Assembly (NCBI GenBank): GCA_024278345.1
Contig: JAJRTK010000077.1
Coordinates: forward strand, 1-8,913
DNA from: a bacterium
GTDB taxonomy: Bacteria; CSSED10-310; JAJRTK01
Reading direction: 5' to 3'
Length of the DNA: 8,913 bases
In this document: positions 423 to 8,913 of the stretch, one piece after another
How the letters are laid out: each line of letters starts with the position of its first letter
Numbering within the stretch: position 1 is the stretch's first letter
The notes under the pieces: generated by a model
Told to the model about the DNA's origin: nothing
Databases searched by the model: none
The model's input: the letters and a program-made list of their open reading frames with translations, nothing else
Made by a program: the position numbers and the translations under genes

Positions 423-1844
423 TCACCCAAATGTTCGACCGAAAAACCAGCCACTGCCCGCCAGCAATGCCAACGCCGAGCCGACTTCCAACACGAGGTC
501 CCCCCGAAACTCCGGCTCCCAGCGGATTCCCACGGGATTTTCGCCATGCGTGCATGGCTCCGCGACCCAATCACTCTCGCCGCCCGATCTTTTTCCCGGT
601 TGCGTCCTGCTCCCATCGGCACCGCTGGGCGCCTTCGGCGCCACCTCCCCGCGTCCGCCGCTACTCGCCTGATCCACCGGTGACCCGCTCTTCGGCCCAC
701 TGGGGAGAGCCCCCAGGAGCTCGGCGCCGCGAGCACGCCCCATTTTTCGGCTCCATGCCAGGAGCGGCCAAATTCCGGCGATGACCACCAGCTGCCCGAT
801 CTCCACACCGCCGTTGAAGCCAAGAAGGCCCGGCAAGAGGTGGCTTCGCGAGAGCTCCAGATCCTTGAGAGCTCCGGCGAATCCGAAACCGTGGACCAGG
901 CCGAAGAGAGCCGTCACCAGAACCCGGAGCCGATCCGGATGACGTCGGCGCAGCAACAGGCCGAAATAGAAGCCGGCGAAAATCGCGGCCCCCAAAAGAG
1001 TCAGCGGCGCCACATTGCCGCCGAAGCAGGTCGCCACGCTGGCAATACCAAGAATGAGCACGGTTGCGCCGGGCAACCGGAAGTCGCGGCGACCCTGAGC
1101 CAGCCAGACGTTTTCCACCGCCACCAGGGCGATGGAGAGGCCAATAAGAGCCTCGATGGCCGCTGGATCGGGCTGGAGCTGATCCATTGCCGCCAGGCCA
1201 AGGGTGAGGCTGTGGCCCACGGTGAAGCCAGTGATGACCGTGGCCAAACGGCCCATGGAGGTGGCGCCTAGAAGGAGTGCCAGAAGAAAGACCAAGTGAT
1301 CCCAGCCACTCCAAATGTGCTCGATCCCCAGCAAAACAAACCGAAGGAAGTTGCGCCAAGAGGAAGGAGGCGAGCGAGGAAGCCGAAGTTCCCGGTTACC
1401 CTCGTTCAGAACGCCTTCCGTTTCGGTCTTTCCGTCCTGGAGAAGGACACGGGTCAGGTGAAGATGCTTCGGGATAAGATCCACTAAAAGGTCACTTCGG
1501 ATCAGCGTCGGAAGAGCCGAACAGCGAAGCCGCCACTGATAGATCTTCCACCCCTGTGGGGAGGGAGGCCTTTGGAGAGAGTCGGAAACTGGAAGACAGT
1601 CCTCGGCCCCGGCCAGGAGCCGAAGTCGAGCCTGCAAGTAGCCACTCACGGCGCCCAGACTGCCTCCCGCCAGAGGGCTGTTTTGGAGTGCGTCAAGATC
1701 GAGGCGGGCCAGCCGGAGGCGCACCGTGGCCGAAGAGCCGCTAACCCGCCAGGAAGAGTAAGAAACGCTCCTGGTATGAGCCGCGGCTCTCCCGGAAACC
1801 AAAAAAGAGGCGAAAAGAACTAGAATCACGCAAACGCGGGACAT
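423..1844 (-). CDS. HupE/UreJ_2-family membrane protein (putative metal permease) with signal peptide and extracytoplasmic N-terminal domain
   Basis: 473 residues from ATG at 1844. The start is chosen because it opens directly onto a signal peptide (hydrophobic 4-17, then GRAAAH with cleavage near Ala22). No strong Shine-Dalgarno is visible, and the frame stays open upstream to 2198 with non-protein-like sequence. Residues 23-160 form a soluble, probably extracytoplasmic, domain. Residues 166-365 hold about six membrane segments, and a last segment lies at 448-470. The HupE/UreJ signature H-x5-DH is present (His176, Asp182, His183), as are GHSLTL (His211), LVHGFGFAG (His318) and FNGGVEIGQ (Glu348). 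HupE proteins are nickel permeases of hydrogenase systems; the HupE/UreJ_2 branch is poorly characterised, so metal transport is inference. Between the last two membrane segments lies a hydrophilic Gly/Ser/Pro/Arg-rich loop of about 80 residues (366-447), which looks unusually long and contains a copy of the dispersed repeat. The gene is last in the leftward group after the DUF3604 and parvulin genes. Substrate unknown. Confidence 0.85.
   Translation of the reverse strand: MSRVCVILVLFASFLVSGRAAAHTRSVSYSSWRVSGSSATVRLRLARLDLDALQNSPLAGGSLGAVSGYLQARLRLLAGAEDCLPVSDSLQRPPSPQGWKIYQWRLRCSALPTLIRSDLLVDLIPKHLHLTRVLLQDGKTETEGVLNEGNRELRLPRSPPSSWRNFLRFVLLGIEHIWSGWDHLVFLLALLLGATSMGRLATVITGFTVGHSLTLGLAAMDQLQPDPAAIEALIGLSIALVAVENVWLAQGRRDFRLPGATVLILGIASVATCFGGNVAPLTLLGAAIFAGFYFGLLLRRRHPDRLRVLVTALFGLVHGFGFAGALKDLELSRSHLLPGLLGFNGGVEIGQLVVIAGIWPLLAWSRKMGRARGAELLGALPSGPKSGSPVDQASSGGRGEVAPKAPSGADGSRTQPGKRSGGESDWVAEPCTHGENPVGIRWEPEFRGDLVLEVGSALALLAGSGWFFGRTFG
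586..633 (-). repeat. Dispersed repeat, copy A, inside the hupE-like coding sequence
   Basis: On the minus strand this reads GGCGCC-CAGC-GGTGCC, a six-pair stem including one G.U, directly followed by the core GATGGGAGCAGGACGCAAC and an A-rich run. The core aligns without gaps to copy C (8646-8687) at 24 of 35 positions and closely to copy B at 6717. The copy lies in the reading frame of the hupE-like gene and encodes roughly residues 405-420 (PSGADGSRTQPGK) of the long hydrophilic loop. Translated in the same frame, copy B gives the similar ASDGSGVQPKKR. This is seen by eye; family size and boundaries are unknown. Confidence 0.55.
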
Positions 1845-2103: not shown

Positions 2104-2177
2104 GCGAAGGCCGGAAGGCCCGCACCCAAAATCCGTTCCCCGGGAGCTTTTCGCCTGGAGGCCTTCCGGCCTTTCGC
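2104..2177. repeat. Inverted repeat with 14-bp perfect arms, downstream of the parvulin-like gene
   Basis: The arm at about 2107-2120 (AAGGCCGGAAGGCC) is the exact reverse complement of 2160-2173 (GGCCTTCCGGCCTT). After a one-base bulge the pairing continues for three more bases (GCG/CGC). The spacer is 39 bases. Each arm can also fold alone, as GGCC-GGAA-GGCC, with a GNRA-type loop on one strand. On the minus strand it begins 18 bases after the parvulin stop. It could act as a transcript end or 3'-protecting structure, although no T-run follows immediately; the nearest T-rich tract is over 40 bases further on. It may instead be a mobile repeat. Confidence 0.6.
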
Positions 2178-5663: not shown

Positions 5664-6590
5664 ATGAGCCCTAAGCACGGGAATGCCGAAAAGCAGAAGA
5701 CCTCTTCCGACGTGTCCGACTCATCGCCGCAAAAGGGCCACGAAGGGAAAGATAGCAACATCGTTCTTATCGACGTCAAGGGTAAGCAGGTTCGGGTGAA
5801 GAAGTACAAGAAAAACGGCAAGCTCAACACGGAGTACTACGAACACGAGCTTGTCCGCCTCCAGACCGAGCTTGTCAAGCTCCAATACTGGGTGCGCGAA
5901 GCAGGCCTCAAGGTGGTGATTGTCTTCGAAGGCCGCGGCTCCGCCGGCAAGGGCGGCGTCATCAAGCGGATCACCGAGCGGATGAGTCCTCGGATCTGCC
6001 GAGTCATCGCTCTCCCCAAACCCACCGATCGGGAAAAAACCCTCTGGTGGTTCCAGCGCTACGTCGCCAACCTTCCGGCTGCCGGTGAAATCGTTCTCTT
6101 CGACCGGAGCTGGTACAATCGGAGCAACGTCGAAAAGGTCATGGGCTTCGCTACACACGAGCAGATCCAGGAATTCCTTCGCTCCTGCCCGCAGTTCGAG
6201 CGAATGCTTGTGCGTTCAGGAGTCATTCTGCTCAAATACTGGTTCTCCATCAGTTACCAAGAGCAGCGGCAGCGCTTTGATGCCCGGAACCGAACGCCTG
6301 TCAAGCGATGGAAGCTGAGCGACATGGACCTCGAAGAGCATCGGCTCTTCGTGGAGTATTCCAAGGCCAAGGACATCACGTTTGACTTCACCGATATCAA
6401 GCAGGCTCCCTGGTACGTCGTGCCATCGGACGACAAGAAGAAAGCGCGTCTCAACTGTATCAGCCACATTCTGAGCCAGATTCCCTACCAGGATGTGGTG
6501 CCCGACCCGGTAGCCATCCCCGAGATGGAAGAGTCTTCCTACATCCGGCCGCCCATCACGGAGCAGACCTTCGTGCCGCAGCTCTACTGA
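5664..6590 (+). CDS. ppk2: Polyphosphate kinase 2 (PPK2 family, class I-like, single domain)
   Basis: 308 residues, a usual length for a one-domain PPK2. These enzymes phosphorylate nucleoside diphosphates (ADP or GDP) with polyphosphate, or the reverse, in the cytoplasm. The first 35 residues are a hydrophilic, Lys/Ser-rich tail. The Walker A region FEGRGSAGKGGVIKR is at 88-102, Walker B EIVLFDRSWYNR (Asp147) at 142-153, and the lid-region stretch KYWFSISYQEQRQRF with WKLSDMDLE at about 191-224. APWYVVPSDDKKKARLNCI at about 248-266 is typical of the family's C-terminal part. Within Walker A the common GRDAAGKGG reads GRGSAGKGG, so an often-conserved Asp is Gly. From memory, similar Gly forms occur in intact PPK2 proteins, so I do not read this as inactivating. 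The gene is divergent from the DUF3604 gene and has its own promoter candidate and strong ribosome site. The family is very sure; class and nucleotide preference are not. Confidence 0.95.
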   Translation: MSPKHGNAEKQKTSSDVSDSSPQKGHEGKDSNIVLIDVKGKQVRVKKYKKNGKLNTEYYEHELVRLQTELVKLQYWVREAGLKVVIVFEGRGSAGKGGVIKRITERMSPRICRVIALPKPTDREKTLWWFQRYVANLPAAGEIVLFDRSWYNRSNVEKVMGFATHEQIQEFLRSCPQFERMLVRSGVILLKYWFSISYQEQRQRFDARNRTPVKRWKLSDMDLEEHRLFVEYSKAKDITFDFTDIKQAPWYVVPSDDKKKARLNCISHILSQIPYQDVVPDPVAIPEMEESSYIRPPITEQTFVPQLY

Positions 6591-6615
6591 TCTCCGGATC
6601 TTGAGTCTTTTCAGC

Positions 6616-6633
6616 CGGTGCGGTCGGGCACCG
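6616..6633 (+). terminator. Possible hairpin after ppk2 (weak terminator candidate)
   Basis: CGGTGC at 6616-6621 pairs with GCACCG at 6628-6633 around a six-base loop, 25 bases after the ppk2 stop. The stem is GC-rich, but no T-run follows, so a classic intrinsic terminator is not supported. Confidence 0.25.
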
Positions 6634-6699
6634 TGGCGGCACCCGCTCGTTGGGGCTTCCTTTGTCCCGGGGGCGTCTGCTGGGGAAAAGGGCGAGCAG

Positions 6700-6759
6700 C
6701 GCGAGCGGCCGCGAGTGATGGGAGCGGAGTACAACCCAAAAAAAGAACGCGGTTTTCCC
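6700..6759 (+). repeat. Dispersed repeat, copy B, between ppk2 and the kinase gene
   Basis: The core at 6717 begins GATGGGAGCGGAGTACAACC and continues as an A-run, then GAACGCGGTTTTCC. It matches the reverse complement of copy C without gaps at about 32 of 42 positions, including the first 12 bases exactly. A shorter stem (CGCG-AGCGGC-CGCG, 6700-6713) lies just before it, in the place of the stem-loops of copies A and C. It fills part of the 228-bp gap; the rest of that gap shows only the hairpin at 6616. Confidence 0.6.
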
Positions 6760-6818
6760 GATGCTCGCCTTCCAAAGGTCAACGCGAACCGCTGGTCTGC
6801 CGGGCACGTGGGCAGGTG

Positions 6819-8603
6819 ATGTTAAAGACCATCGACAAGACGCGGTTTCAGCTCGAGAAGCTCAAGGTGATCCTCAAGGAAGGGCACCTTTCGTTTCCCT
6901 TGGGCGGGACGCTCCCTGCCGACCTGCTAGAACAGGCGCGACGGAGGCTCGGGTTGGTGGGGCTGGCATACGCGGTGACCTGGTCTCTCTACCTGCCTTT
7001 CCCAAGGCTGATTTTCCAGCGCTCGCTCTTTGCCCACGAGTGCGTGCCGATTTTTATCTCCATTGTGATGGGGCTTGGCATCTATGCTCTGTCAAGGAGC
7101 AGGATCTCTTCGGCTCTGCTGCTGGACGTCGGCTTGGGTTTTCAAGTGGCGGGAAGCTTTACCATCGCTCTTTTGACCACCTGGAACATCTTCTCGCCCC
7201 AGACTTTTTCTCCCGCGGCCGTCTATGTGGTGAAAGGCTTGATCTGGATGGGGCTCGTGGAGCCTCTCCACAATTTGACTTTGGGCGAGCTGAGCTGGAT
7301 CTGCGTCTGGATTGTGGCGTTTCCGCTCTTCGTTCCGAGCAGGCCTGGAAAAATCCTTGTTTCTTCGCTGCTTGCGGCAACGATGATGCCTTTGGCCCAG
7401 CTTTTGACCTTCTGGATCAACGGAGTTTCGGCTCCGCTTCGTCCATACGTGCCACTCATCCTGCTCTGGGGGGCGTTCCCCACCTATGTTTGCGCCGTTC
7501 TTTCCTTTTTCGGTGGGAAGGTCCTTTACCAGCTTACCAGCGATGTCAGCCGTGCTCGGGAAATGGGCAGCTACACTCTGACGAAGCTCCTGGGAAAGGG
7601 AGGCATGGGCGAGGTCTGGGGCGCCCGGCACCAGATGCTGGCGCGGCCGGCGGCCATCAAGCTTATCCGGAGCGAGTCACTGGGGGGAAGTGACGCGGCG
7701 AAACAGGCCACGCTGATCCAGCGGTTCGAGCGGGAGGCCCAAGCCACGGCATCTCTCGCGTCGCCCCACGCCGTCGAGCTCTACGACTTCGGCACAACAA
7801 GGGATGGGACCTTCTACTACGTCATGGAGCTCCTGGACGGCCTCGATCTCCAGACGCTGGTAGAGCGTTTCGGGCCTCAGCCTCCATCCCGGGTGGTCCA
7901 TTTTCTTCTCCAGACGTGCCACGCCCTGGCCGAAGCTCATGAGAAGGGCCTCATCCACCGGGACATCAAGCCGGCAAACCTCTATAGCTGTCGATTCGGC
8001 CGGGATTATGACTTCGTGAAGGTTCTGGACTTTGGCCTGGTGAAACCTCTGGCCGCGCCGGAGAAGGGAGGTACCAAGCTCACCCAAGTGGGGACGGTGA
8101 CGGGAACGCCGGCCTATGTAGCCCCGGAAATGGTTCTAGAAGGTGAAGCGGTAGATGGCCGCGCCGACCTCTATGCTCTGGCTTGCGTCGCCTATTGGCT
8201 GTTGACGGGAACGAATCTCTTTTCGGGAAGAGGGGTGGTGGAGCTCCTTGTACAACACGCCCGATCCCTTCCGGAACCTCCATCGAAAAGGTTGGGCACT
8301 GCCTTACCCAAAGGCCTGGAGGACTTGATTCTCAAGTGTTTGGCCAAGGACCCGGCGAACCGCCCCCAGACGGCTGACGAATTGAAAACAGAGCTGGAGG
8401 AGCTCGAACTGGCCAAGGATTGGCCAAGCTGGCGGGCGCGGGATTGGTGGGCGGAAAATATGCCGGAGCGGCAGGATGAAAAAGACGATCTCACGCCGAA
8501 GCTCGGGAGCCGCCAATTGGAGACCGAGACGCTACAGATCACGGCGCAAGGAGCTCGAATCCGCCTAGGCGCGGGGAGCACGGAGCTCACAAAACACGAT
8601 TGA
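6819..8603 (+). CDS. Hanks-type Ser/Thr protein kinase with an N-terminal multi-pass membrane domain
   Basis: 594 residues from ATG at 6819; AGG just upstream is a poor ribosome site, and the preceding GTG at 6816 is an alternative. Residues 40-240 contain about seven hydrophobic segments (for example GLVGLAYAVTWSLYLPF, ECVPIFISIVMGLGIYAL, YVPLILLWGAFPTYVCAV). The kinase domain follows at about 252-525. All key elements are present: Gly loop GKGGMGEV (259-266), AIK lysine 281, an alpha-C Glu near 306 in RFEREAQ, catalytic loop HRDIKPAN (Asp382, Asn387), DFG (Asp404), activation segment ending TPAYVAPE (437), and the late NRP motif. It should therefore be an active ATP-dependent kinase facing the cytoplasm. 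A hydrophilic tail of about 65 residues ends the protein, with no PASTA or other C-terminal sensor. The membrane domain comes first, unlike PknB-type kinases with one late membrane segment. Signal and targets are unknown. It lies downstream of ppk2 in the same direction but 228 bp away, so co-transcription is uncertain. Confidence 0.92.
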   Translation: MLKTIDKTRFQLEKLKVILKEGHLSFPLGGTLPADLLEQARRRLGLVGLAYAVTWSLYLPFPRLIFQRSLFAHECVPIFISIVMGLGIYALSRSRISSALLLDVGLGFQVAGSFTIALLTTWNIFSPQTFSPAAVYVVKGLIWMGLVEPLHNLTLGELSWICVWIVAFPLFVPSRPGKILVSSLLAATMMPLAQLLTFWINGVSAPLRPYVPLILLWGAFPTYVCAVLSFFGGKVLYQLTSDVSRAREMGSYTLTKLLGKGGMGEVWGARHQMLARPAAIKLIRSESLGGSDAAKQATLIQRFEREAQATASLASPHAVELYDFGTTRDGTFYYVMELLDGLDLQTLVERFGPQPPSRVVHFLLQTCHALAEAHEKGLIHRDIKPANLYSCRFGRDYDFVKVLDFGLVKPLAAPEKGGTKLTQVGTVTGTPAYVAPEMVLEGEAVDGRADLYALACVAYWLLTGTNLFSGRGVVELLVQHARSLPEPPSKRLGTALPKGLEDLILKCLAKDPANRPQTADELKTELEELELAKDWPSWRARDWWAENMPERQDEKDDLTPKLGSRQLETETLQITAQGARIRLGAGSTELTKHD

Positions 8604-8645
8604 CGAGCAATCTTGGATCATGCTTTTCGTCTGGGCTTGGATCTC

Positions 8646-8705
8646 GGTAAACCCTTTGCTTTCTTTGTGTTGCGTTCCGCTCCCATCGGGCGCCGTCCGG
8701 CACCC
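8646..8705 (-). repeat. Dispersed repeat, copy C, downstream of the kinase gene
   Basis: On the minus strand GGGTGCC (8705-8699), loop GGAC and GGCGCCC (8694-8688) form a seven-pair stem with one U.G pair. It is directly followed by the core GATGGGAGCGGAACGCAACA and an A-rich tail to 8646. Copy A has the same stem with its arms exchanged (GGCGCC then GGTGCC), so pairing is kept although the sequence differs. The rest of 8604-8827 holds no gene I can support; the small minus frames there translate to low-complexity, Arg-rich sequence. Confidence 0.58.
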
Positions 8706-8827
8706 GCTCTCCGCCATTGCCGCCGCTTTCGATCCGCAGCCCGAAGGCCGGAGCACCGCCAATTCTCTTTGCAGGGGCCTCGGTCATGGTACCGGCCACC
8801 CGAAAAAAGCGCGCAGCGCACAAAGAT

Positions 8828-8913
8828 GTGGGTCCAGGGAGCTGGCTCCCTGGCGTGGGTCTGGGAGCGGCGCTCCCAGCGGAGGTCCGGAGGCAGAGCC
8901 TCCGCCGGGTTCC
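8828..8913. repeat. Tandem array of about 26-bp hairpin repeats, continuing past the right edge
   Basis: Three consecutive units each begin with GGGT or AGGT (8830, 8857, 8883), with a fourth starting at 8907, giving spacings of 27, 26 and 24. Each holds its own hairpin: CCAGGGAG-CTGG-CTCCCTGG (8834-8853), CTGGGAGC-GGC-GCTCCCAG (8861-8879) and CGGAGGC-AGA-GCCTCCG (8888-8904). Stem sequences differ from unit to unit while pairing stays perfect. From memory, GGGTC-plus-palindrome repeats of this look occur between genes in many high-GC bacteria; their role is unclear. The position 225 bases after the kinase stop allows a transcript-end role, but there is no T-run. Confidence 0.75.

Follow-up and report, generated by a model that had tools for sequence, protein, structure and literature searches.

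A dispersed repeat, present in three copies in the window (the whole stretch of 8,913 nucleotides analysed here), is best explained as a MITE of 146-148 or 170-172 bp, and very probably is one: a non-autonomous DNA transposon that would insert through staggered 8-bp cuts and appears to have been amplified to about 400 copies in the lineage of its host. It represents a new family within a known class of elements. A preliminary description of the same DNA had given the element a size of 48-60 bp, far below the actual one, and missed its terminally bounded, transposable nature, with the 8-bp duplications that go with it. The three main copies it reported, A, B and C, are real, with profile E-values of 0.008, 9e-6 and 1e-37. 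A fourth, weak copy at 2033-2069 has no profile match and belongs to a different repeat, a member of another short repeat family at 2019-2066, 85% identical to L070:6044-6090. The features discussed below are as follows.

423-1724, minus strand: HupE/UreJ-like membrane-protein gene with copy A in frame (PF13795, E 2.6e-41).
590-678, minus strand: copy A, degenerate, of the subtype with an extra hairpin (nhmmer E 0.008; 2.7e-6 with a subtype profile searched against the window only).
2128-2135, plus strand: empty target site AAAATCCG; the flanking repeat is filled in L105 (contig C485).
6682-6770, plus strand: copy B, old, of the short-hairpin subtype, stem GC-GA-GC-GGCC-GC-GA-GT (nhmmer E 8.7e-6).
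8614-8760, minus strand: copy C, full-length, about 147 bp (nhmmer E 1.1e-37, match 8604-8759, profile positions 2-160; terminal alignment).
8669-8705, minus strand: core of copy C, hairpin GGGTGCC-GGAC-GGCGCCC and then GATGGGAGCGGAACGCAAC (direct sequence and family alignment).

The core 11-mer of the repeat, GATGGGAGCGG, has 262 exact occurrences (132 + 130) in the 6.06 Mb host assembly of 550 contigs, while the reversed pattern has 0. In 40 other genomes the same 11-mer is found 0-16 times per genome and the reversed pattern 0-7 times. Further, a family profile built from 18 aligned copies and searched with nhmmer gives 130 matches at E <= 0.02 in 849 kb (~0.85 Mb) of the host genome, and zero matches at that threshold in Markov-shuffled or reversed sequence. 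Together, the two counts and their controls exclude chance. The exact core is present in 80 of the 125 scored matches, which by extrapolation gives about 409 copies in the genome. A count of copies against chance had been proposed as a check on the repeat, and with hundreds of copies, far above chance, the repeat passes it. The placement statistics below refer to the 0.85 Mb sample; its stretches were fetched for carrying the core, which inflates the density and leaves partial elements that lack a core under-represented.

When copies are aligned outward, the core turns out to be the middle of a 146-148 bp unit, or of a 170-172 bp unit where an extra apical hairpin is present. The layout of the unit is GGTGGTGCTCCGGCCTTAGGGCAGTGG ... 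GGCGAGYAGC-hairpin-GATGGGAGCGGAACGCAACACAAAGAAAACAAAGGG ... ACGCCCTAAAAGAAGAGCACGACC. Three forms of its apical part exist. In the first, that of copy C, a 7-bp stem is capped by a GGAY loop; in the second (copy B) the stem is shorter, has GA/GA mismatches facing each other and ends in a GGMC-type loop; the third (copy A) is longer, with an added 6-9 bp stem closed by a GAA or similar loop. Several diverging subfamilies can be recognised within the family.

The ends of the element are well defined. GGTSGTGCTY is found at both, forming imperfect terminal inverted repeats (GGTSGTGCTY / GGTCGTGCTCTTC). In a scan for the two ends in inverted orientation, each pair flanked by matching 8-mers, nine copies (L024, L060, L074, L084, L095, L101, L105, L110 and L111) have perfect 8-bp target-site duplications. 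In the element's sense the duplicated 8-mers are AGAAGATC, CGACTTTG, AGATAATC, AGAAACCG, CGTTTTCG, AGGATTCC, AAAATCCG, CAATTTTT and CGGATTTG. All nine elements measure 146, 148, 170 or 172 bp. No perfect case exists at another length; end pairs at other lengths have mismatched 8-mers and poor ends. In a looser test for direct repeats at the boundaries, a score of at least 8 is reached by 9 of 33 copies, where permuted flanks predict 1.3. The duplication is absent at some full-length copies (L020, L068, L069 and L120), and that of copy C, which ends just past the stop codon of a Ser/Thr kinase gene (gene end 8603), has decayed.

In L105 the element is inserted in a second dispersed repeat, with the 8-mer AAAATCCG on both sides, and the uninterrupted form of this host repeat lies in the window at 2081-2172. 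Comparison of L105 with the empty site shows that the duplication is 8 bp long and that the adjoining GG/CC is part of the element ends. The host repeat at 2081-2172 is itself a long hairpin; over 105 bp it shares 94% identity with L070:2093-2197, and it predates at least one insertion of the element. At L060 8452-8661 a full element directly follows the right end of a second, same-strand copy, which suggests an insertion beside or into an older copy.

Inverted ends together with target duplications are the hallmark of DDE-type DNA transposition, and an element of this type without a gene of its own is a MITE. The terminal inverted repeats and the 8-bp target-site duplications thus identify the repeat as a MITE. 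It is also short, with fixed ends and a duplication of fixed length, contains no transposase gene, and is present in many dispersed, mostly intergenic copies.

With genes called by a simple hexamer model, coding sequence makes up 83% of the sample, yet 120 of the 130 matches are intergenic; of the other ten, 3 lie partly and 7 mainly within called genes. Copy B, for instance, is located between a PPK2 gene (5664-6590, stop at 6590) and a kinase gene (6819-8603, likely start at 6819). Most copies probably persist because of this location between genes. Between tandem genes there is a modest orientation bias, with 40 copies in sense and 20 in antisense (p = 0.013), which is non-significant in every age class alone.

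The centre of the element folds into a hairpin whose pairing is maintained across the family. Selection on a structure had been proposed earlier from an apparent compensation between the stems of copies A and C. The stem quoted for A (GGCGCC-CAGC-GGTGCC) is not homologous to that of C, so no compensation can be derived from this comparison; the conserved apical stem in A's subtype is GGCGCC-GAA-GGCGCC, atop CGGC/GCCG. However, compensation across the whole family is real, with G.U on one strand, and the proposal of a selected structure is supported. In the ten-pair helix of 88 distinct copies, 81.5% of the cells are paired, compared with 66.8% after shuffling, and the covariation score is 0.413 against 0.197. 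Two-sided changes are seen in 131 cells against 45.6 when shuffled, a level reached in 0 of 500 shuffles, but related copies are not independent and the change counts are therefore overstated. Compensatory change supports nine of the ten pairs. At one pair at the foot of the hairpin, 66 copies have A-U and 21 have G-C. Sliding the helix partner by 1-3 columns abolishes the covariation signal.

In the helix columns there are, on the plus strand, 84 G.U cells and only 19 A.C cells, of which 18 fall at a single pair of columns in which the alignment of the second subtype is probably wrong. This excess of G.U indicates that a strand-specific fold is maintained. A role as duplex or cruciform would not separate G.U from A.C, so it is the folded plus strand that matters, either as RNA or as single-stranded DNA. 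The folding energy of single copies is unexceptional (z from -3.1 to +0.8), and minimum free energy was dropped as support for the fold.

The conserved centre folds as a hairpin on one strand, kept by compensatory changes, and this hairpin probably acts as RNA, either in read-through from a neighbouring operon, affecting mRNA stability or processing, or in a transposition intermediate. A more far-reaching picture is unlikely to apply: an RNA fold specific to one strand, with apical hairpins that can be exchanged, would form the centre of the transposon and be kept after insertion by selection on the RNA, as an operon-level element, and forms of codon-multiple length (target duplication included) could also enter genes without breaking them.

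A rival explanation starts from a functional family of cis-regulatory RNAs or sRNAs: the core would be such an RNA, taken up by a transposon only later and kept by selection on the host side. The strand-specific covariation and the preference for the sense orientation between tandem genes both fit such an RNA, as does the finding that the centre is the best conserved part among old copies, but this conservation is partly built in, since the core sequence was used to collect the sample. No match to the element above the gathering score exists in Rfam, so the RNA family would be a new one. Several hundred copies restricted to one lineage fit a mobile element better than a regulator, and we regard a captured regulatory RNA as improbable.

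Alternatively, the repeat could belong to the GTAG superfamily of REPs and be moved in the form of single-stranded DNA by a RAYT (a Y1 tyrosine transposase); the G.U asymmetry, which shows that one strand folds, speaks for this. As in the GTAG REPs that occur with RAYT (PMC3733652), a tag is found at the foot of the hairpin in about half of the copies (47 of 88; 26 GTAG and 21 GCAG), and the genome contains one RAYT-like gene (PF01797). In contrast to those REPs, whose tag is invariant and unpaired, the tag here is variable (GTAG in only 26 of 88 copies), and its third base is paired and covaries with the opposite side (AG/AT 66, GG/AC 13, GG/CC 8). The terminal inverted repeats and 8-bp duplications are not products of HUH transposition, and the RAYT gene is not flanked by repeats as in those systems: it has no convincing copies beside it, the nearest downstream match having an E of 0.12. 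We therefore consider a GTAG REP very unlikely. The RAYT-like Y1 transposase gene, at L029 1012-1737 (contig C390), is the single one in the genome and shows no clear flanking repeats; as mobiliser of the element RAYT is rejected because of the 8-bp duplications and the flanks of this gene.

The MITE would more plausibly be moved by a DDE transposase that acts in trans and recognises the GGTSGTGCTY ends, possibly of IS1595 or another family making 8-bp duplications, such as ISL3, IS66 or IS6. Such an enzyme may by now be absent, decayed or unassembled in the host genome. Searches of the host genome with PF01609, PF00872 and PF12762 gave no autonomous relative with the ends of the element, and returned only ISAs1-type and IS1595-type fragments with unlike ends. 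DDE_Tnp_1 is represented in the host by one ISAs1-type C-terminal fragment at a contig end, Transposase_mut is not found in the genome, and IS1595 is represented by two fragments, into one of which a copy of the element has apparently inserted. Duplications of 8 bp are typical of IS1595 elements. The fragments begin with GGCTCTATATGCGATCC and not with GGTSGTGC, and because of this difference in the ends a link to IS1595 is only a possibility. The decayed IS1595-type transposase gene that an element copy apparently splits is located at L073 12212-13020 (contig C322).

Copy A is translated as part of the HupE/UreJ-like protein, in a loop that is missing from homologues without the repeat, as the preliminary description had proposed. 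It had pointed to residues 366-447 as the part to compare with orthologues, but the repeat corresponds to residues 349-379 of the 433-residue product, with the predicted peptide ASSGGRGEVAPKAPSGADGSRTQPGKR. From a conserved G-V/L-E motif to the C-terminus there are 128 residues here, compared with 52-56 in four homologues, one of which (L141) is a paralogue in the host genome itself. All four lack the loop of about 74 residues in which copy A lies, so the comparison with homologues, suggested as a possible refutation, does not refute the insertion. The terminal helix of the copy-A protein ends in WFFGRTFG, near WWFVGRTLP of the homologue L134, and this match indicates that the reading frame was kept through the insertion. 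An element of 172 bp together with its 8 bp can supply 60 residues, fewer than the roughly 74 extra ones, so part of the loop has another origin or results from later change. Copies A and B were also said to share a reading frame: A is clearly translated in it, but B is intergenic (6590 to 6819).

Two further copies lie in genes in the same element frame (L062:4599-5657 and L093:11763-13019), and in all three cases the host gene still reads through the element. With 8 bp added, the 148- and 172-bp forms, but not the 146- and 170-bp forms, give a whole number of codons. Sense frame 0 is open in most full-length copies, and the 148-bp form is often open in four of its six frames. Copy A may have survived in hupE because one sense frame was open, 172 + 8 bp made up whole codons and the insertion landed in a loop. 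Three intragenic copies are too few to say whether codon-multiple length is under selection. A protein-level insertion element that spreads peptides into genes, like the Rickettsia palindromic elements (RPEs), would agree with the common frame of these copies and with the divisibility of 148 + 8 and 172 + 8 by three, but no more than about 3 of 130 copies clearly lie within genes in the sense orientation, and open frames are common in the 148-bp form in any case (four of six), which makes it most improbable.

The likeness to RPEs drawn earlier holds for copy A only; the habit of the family differs. Like RPEs, the element is about 150 bp long, structured, stop-free in one frame and translatable inside host genes (PMC10969869). 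Nearly half of the 44 RPEs first reported are inside genes (PMC10969869), while more than nine in ten copies are intergenic here; the open frame and read-through of RPEs are found in this family, but not their frequent in-frame insertion into genes.

The closest known element, judged by the architecture described in PMC5896051 only, is QMITE2 of Coxiella burnetii. Full-size QMITE2 is 150-190 bp long, with terminal inverted repeats and variable direct repeats of 7-11 nt; it has an internal GTAG-type palindrome, small degenerate REP-like versions and some in-frame protein extensions (PMC5896051). It is present in 78 copies (PMC5896051), compared with about 400 estimated here, and the element described here differs from it by its 8-bp duplication, its variable and partly paired tag and its two interchangeable lengths of apical hairpin. 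By description, the element also resembles the Correia, ERIC and Chunjie MITEs, which are non-autonomous, intergenic and of high copy number, with inverted terminal repeats and stem-loop transcripts (PMC10969869). In contrast to these, a strand-specific, covarying central hairpin has been measured here.

As a kind of element the family is familiar. It documents a MITE expansion (about 400 copies, extrapolated) in a sparsely sampled phylum, and gives unusually clean evidence for a one-strand hairpin that is maintained while the family diversifies, together with translated copies in at least three genes. The copies offer a natural series in which to study two questions: whether elements of this sort are retained for the sake of an RNA function or simply tolerated, and by what route a mobile element with a structure of its own comes to be incorporated in a protein.

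The full element has no match by DNA in seven other genomes of the phylum, and none in plasmids or phages. A covariance model finds none in 59 other genomes (7 of the phylum and 52 others, with 77 candidates scored per genome). An exact 19-mer is absent from viral contigs and has one match in 84,980 genomes (Methylopila), which is about chance level, in a collection from which the host's own records may be left out. The closest genomes share only the phylum, so the family is lineage-specific at a coarse sampling.

A further repeat, made of consecutive hairpins, occupies positions 8776-8913 of the window; several sampled contigs contain it with 98-99% identity over 138 bp, usually at a contig end, and it is the probable cause of the break in the assembly at which the window stops. 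In L013, a group II intron match (RF00029) is found at 19-97, near the start of the contig.
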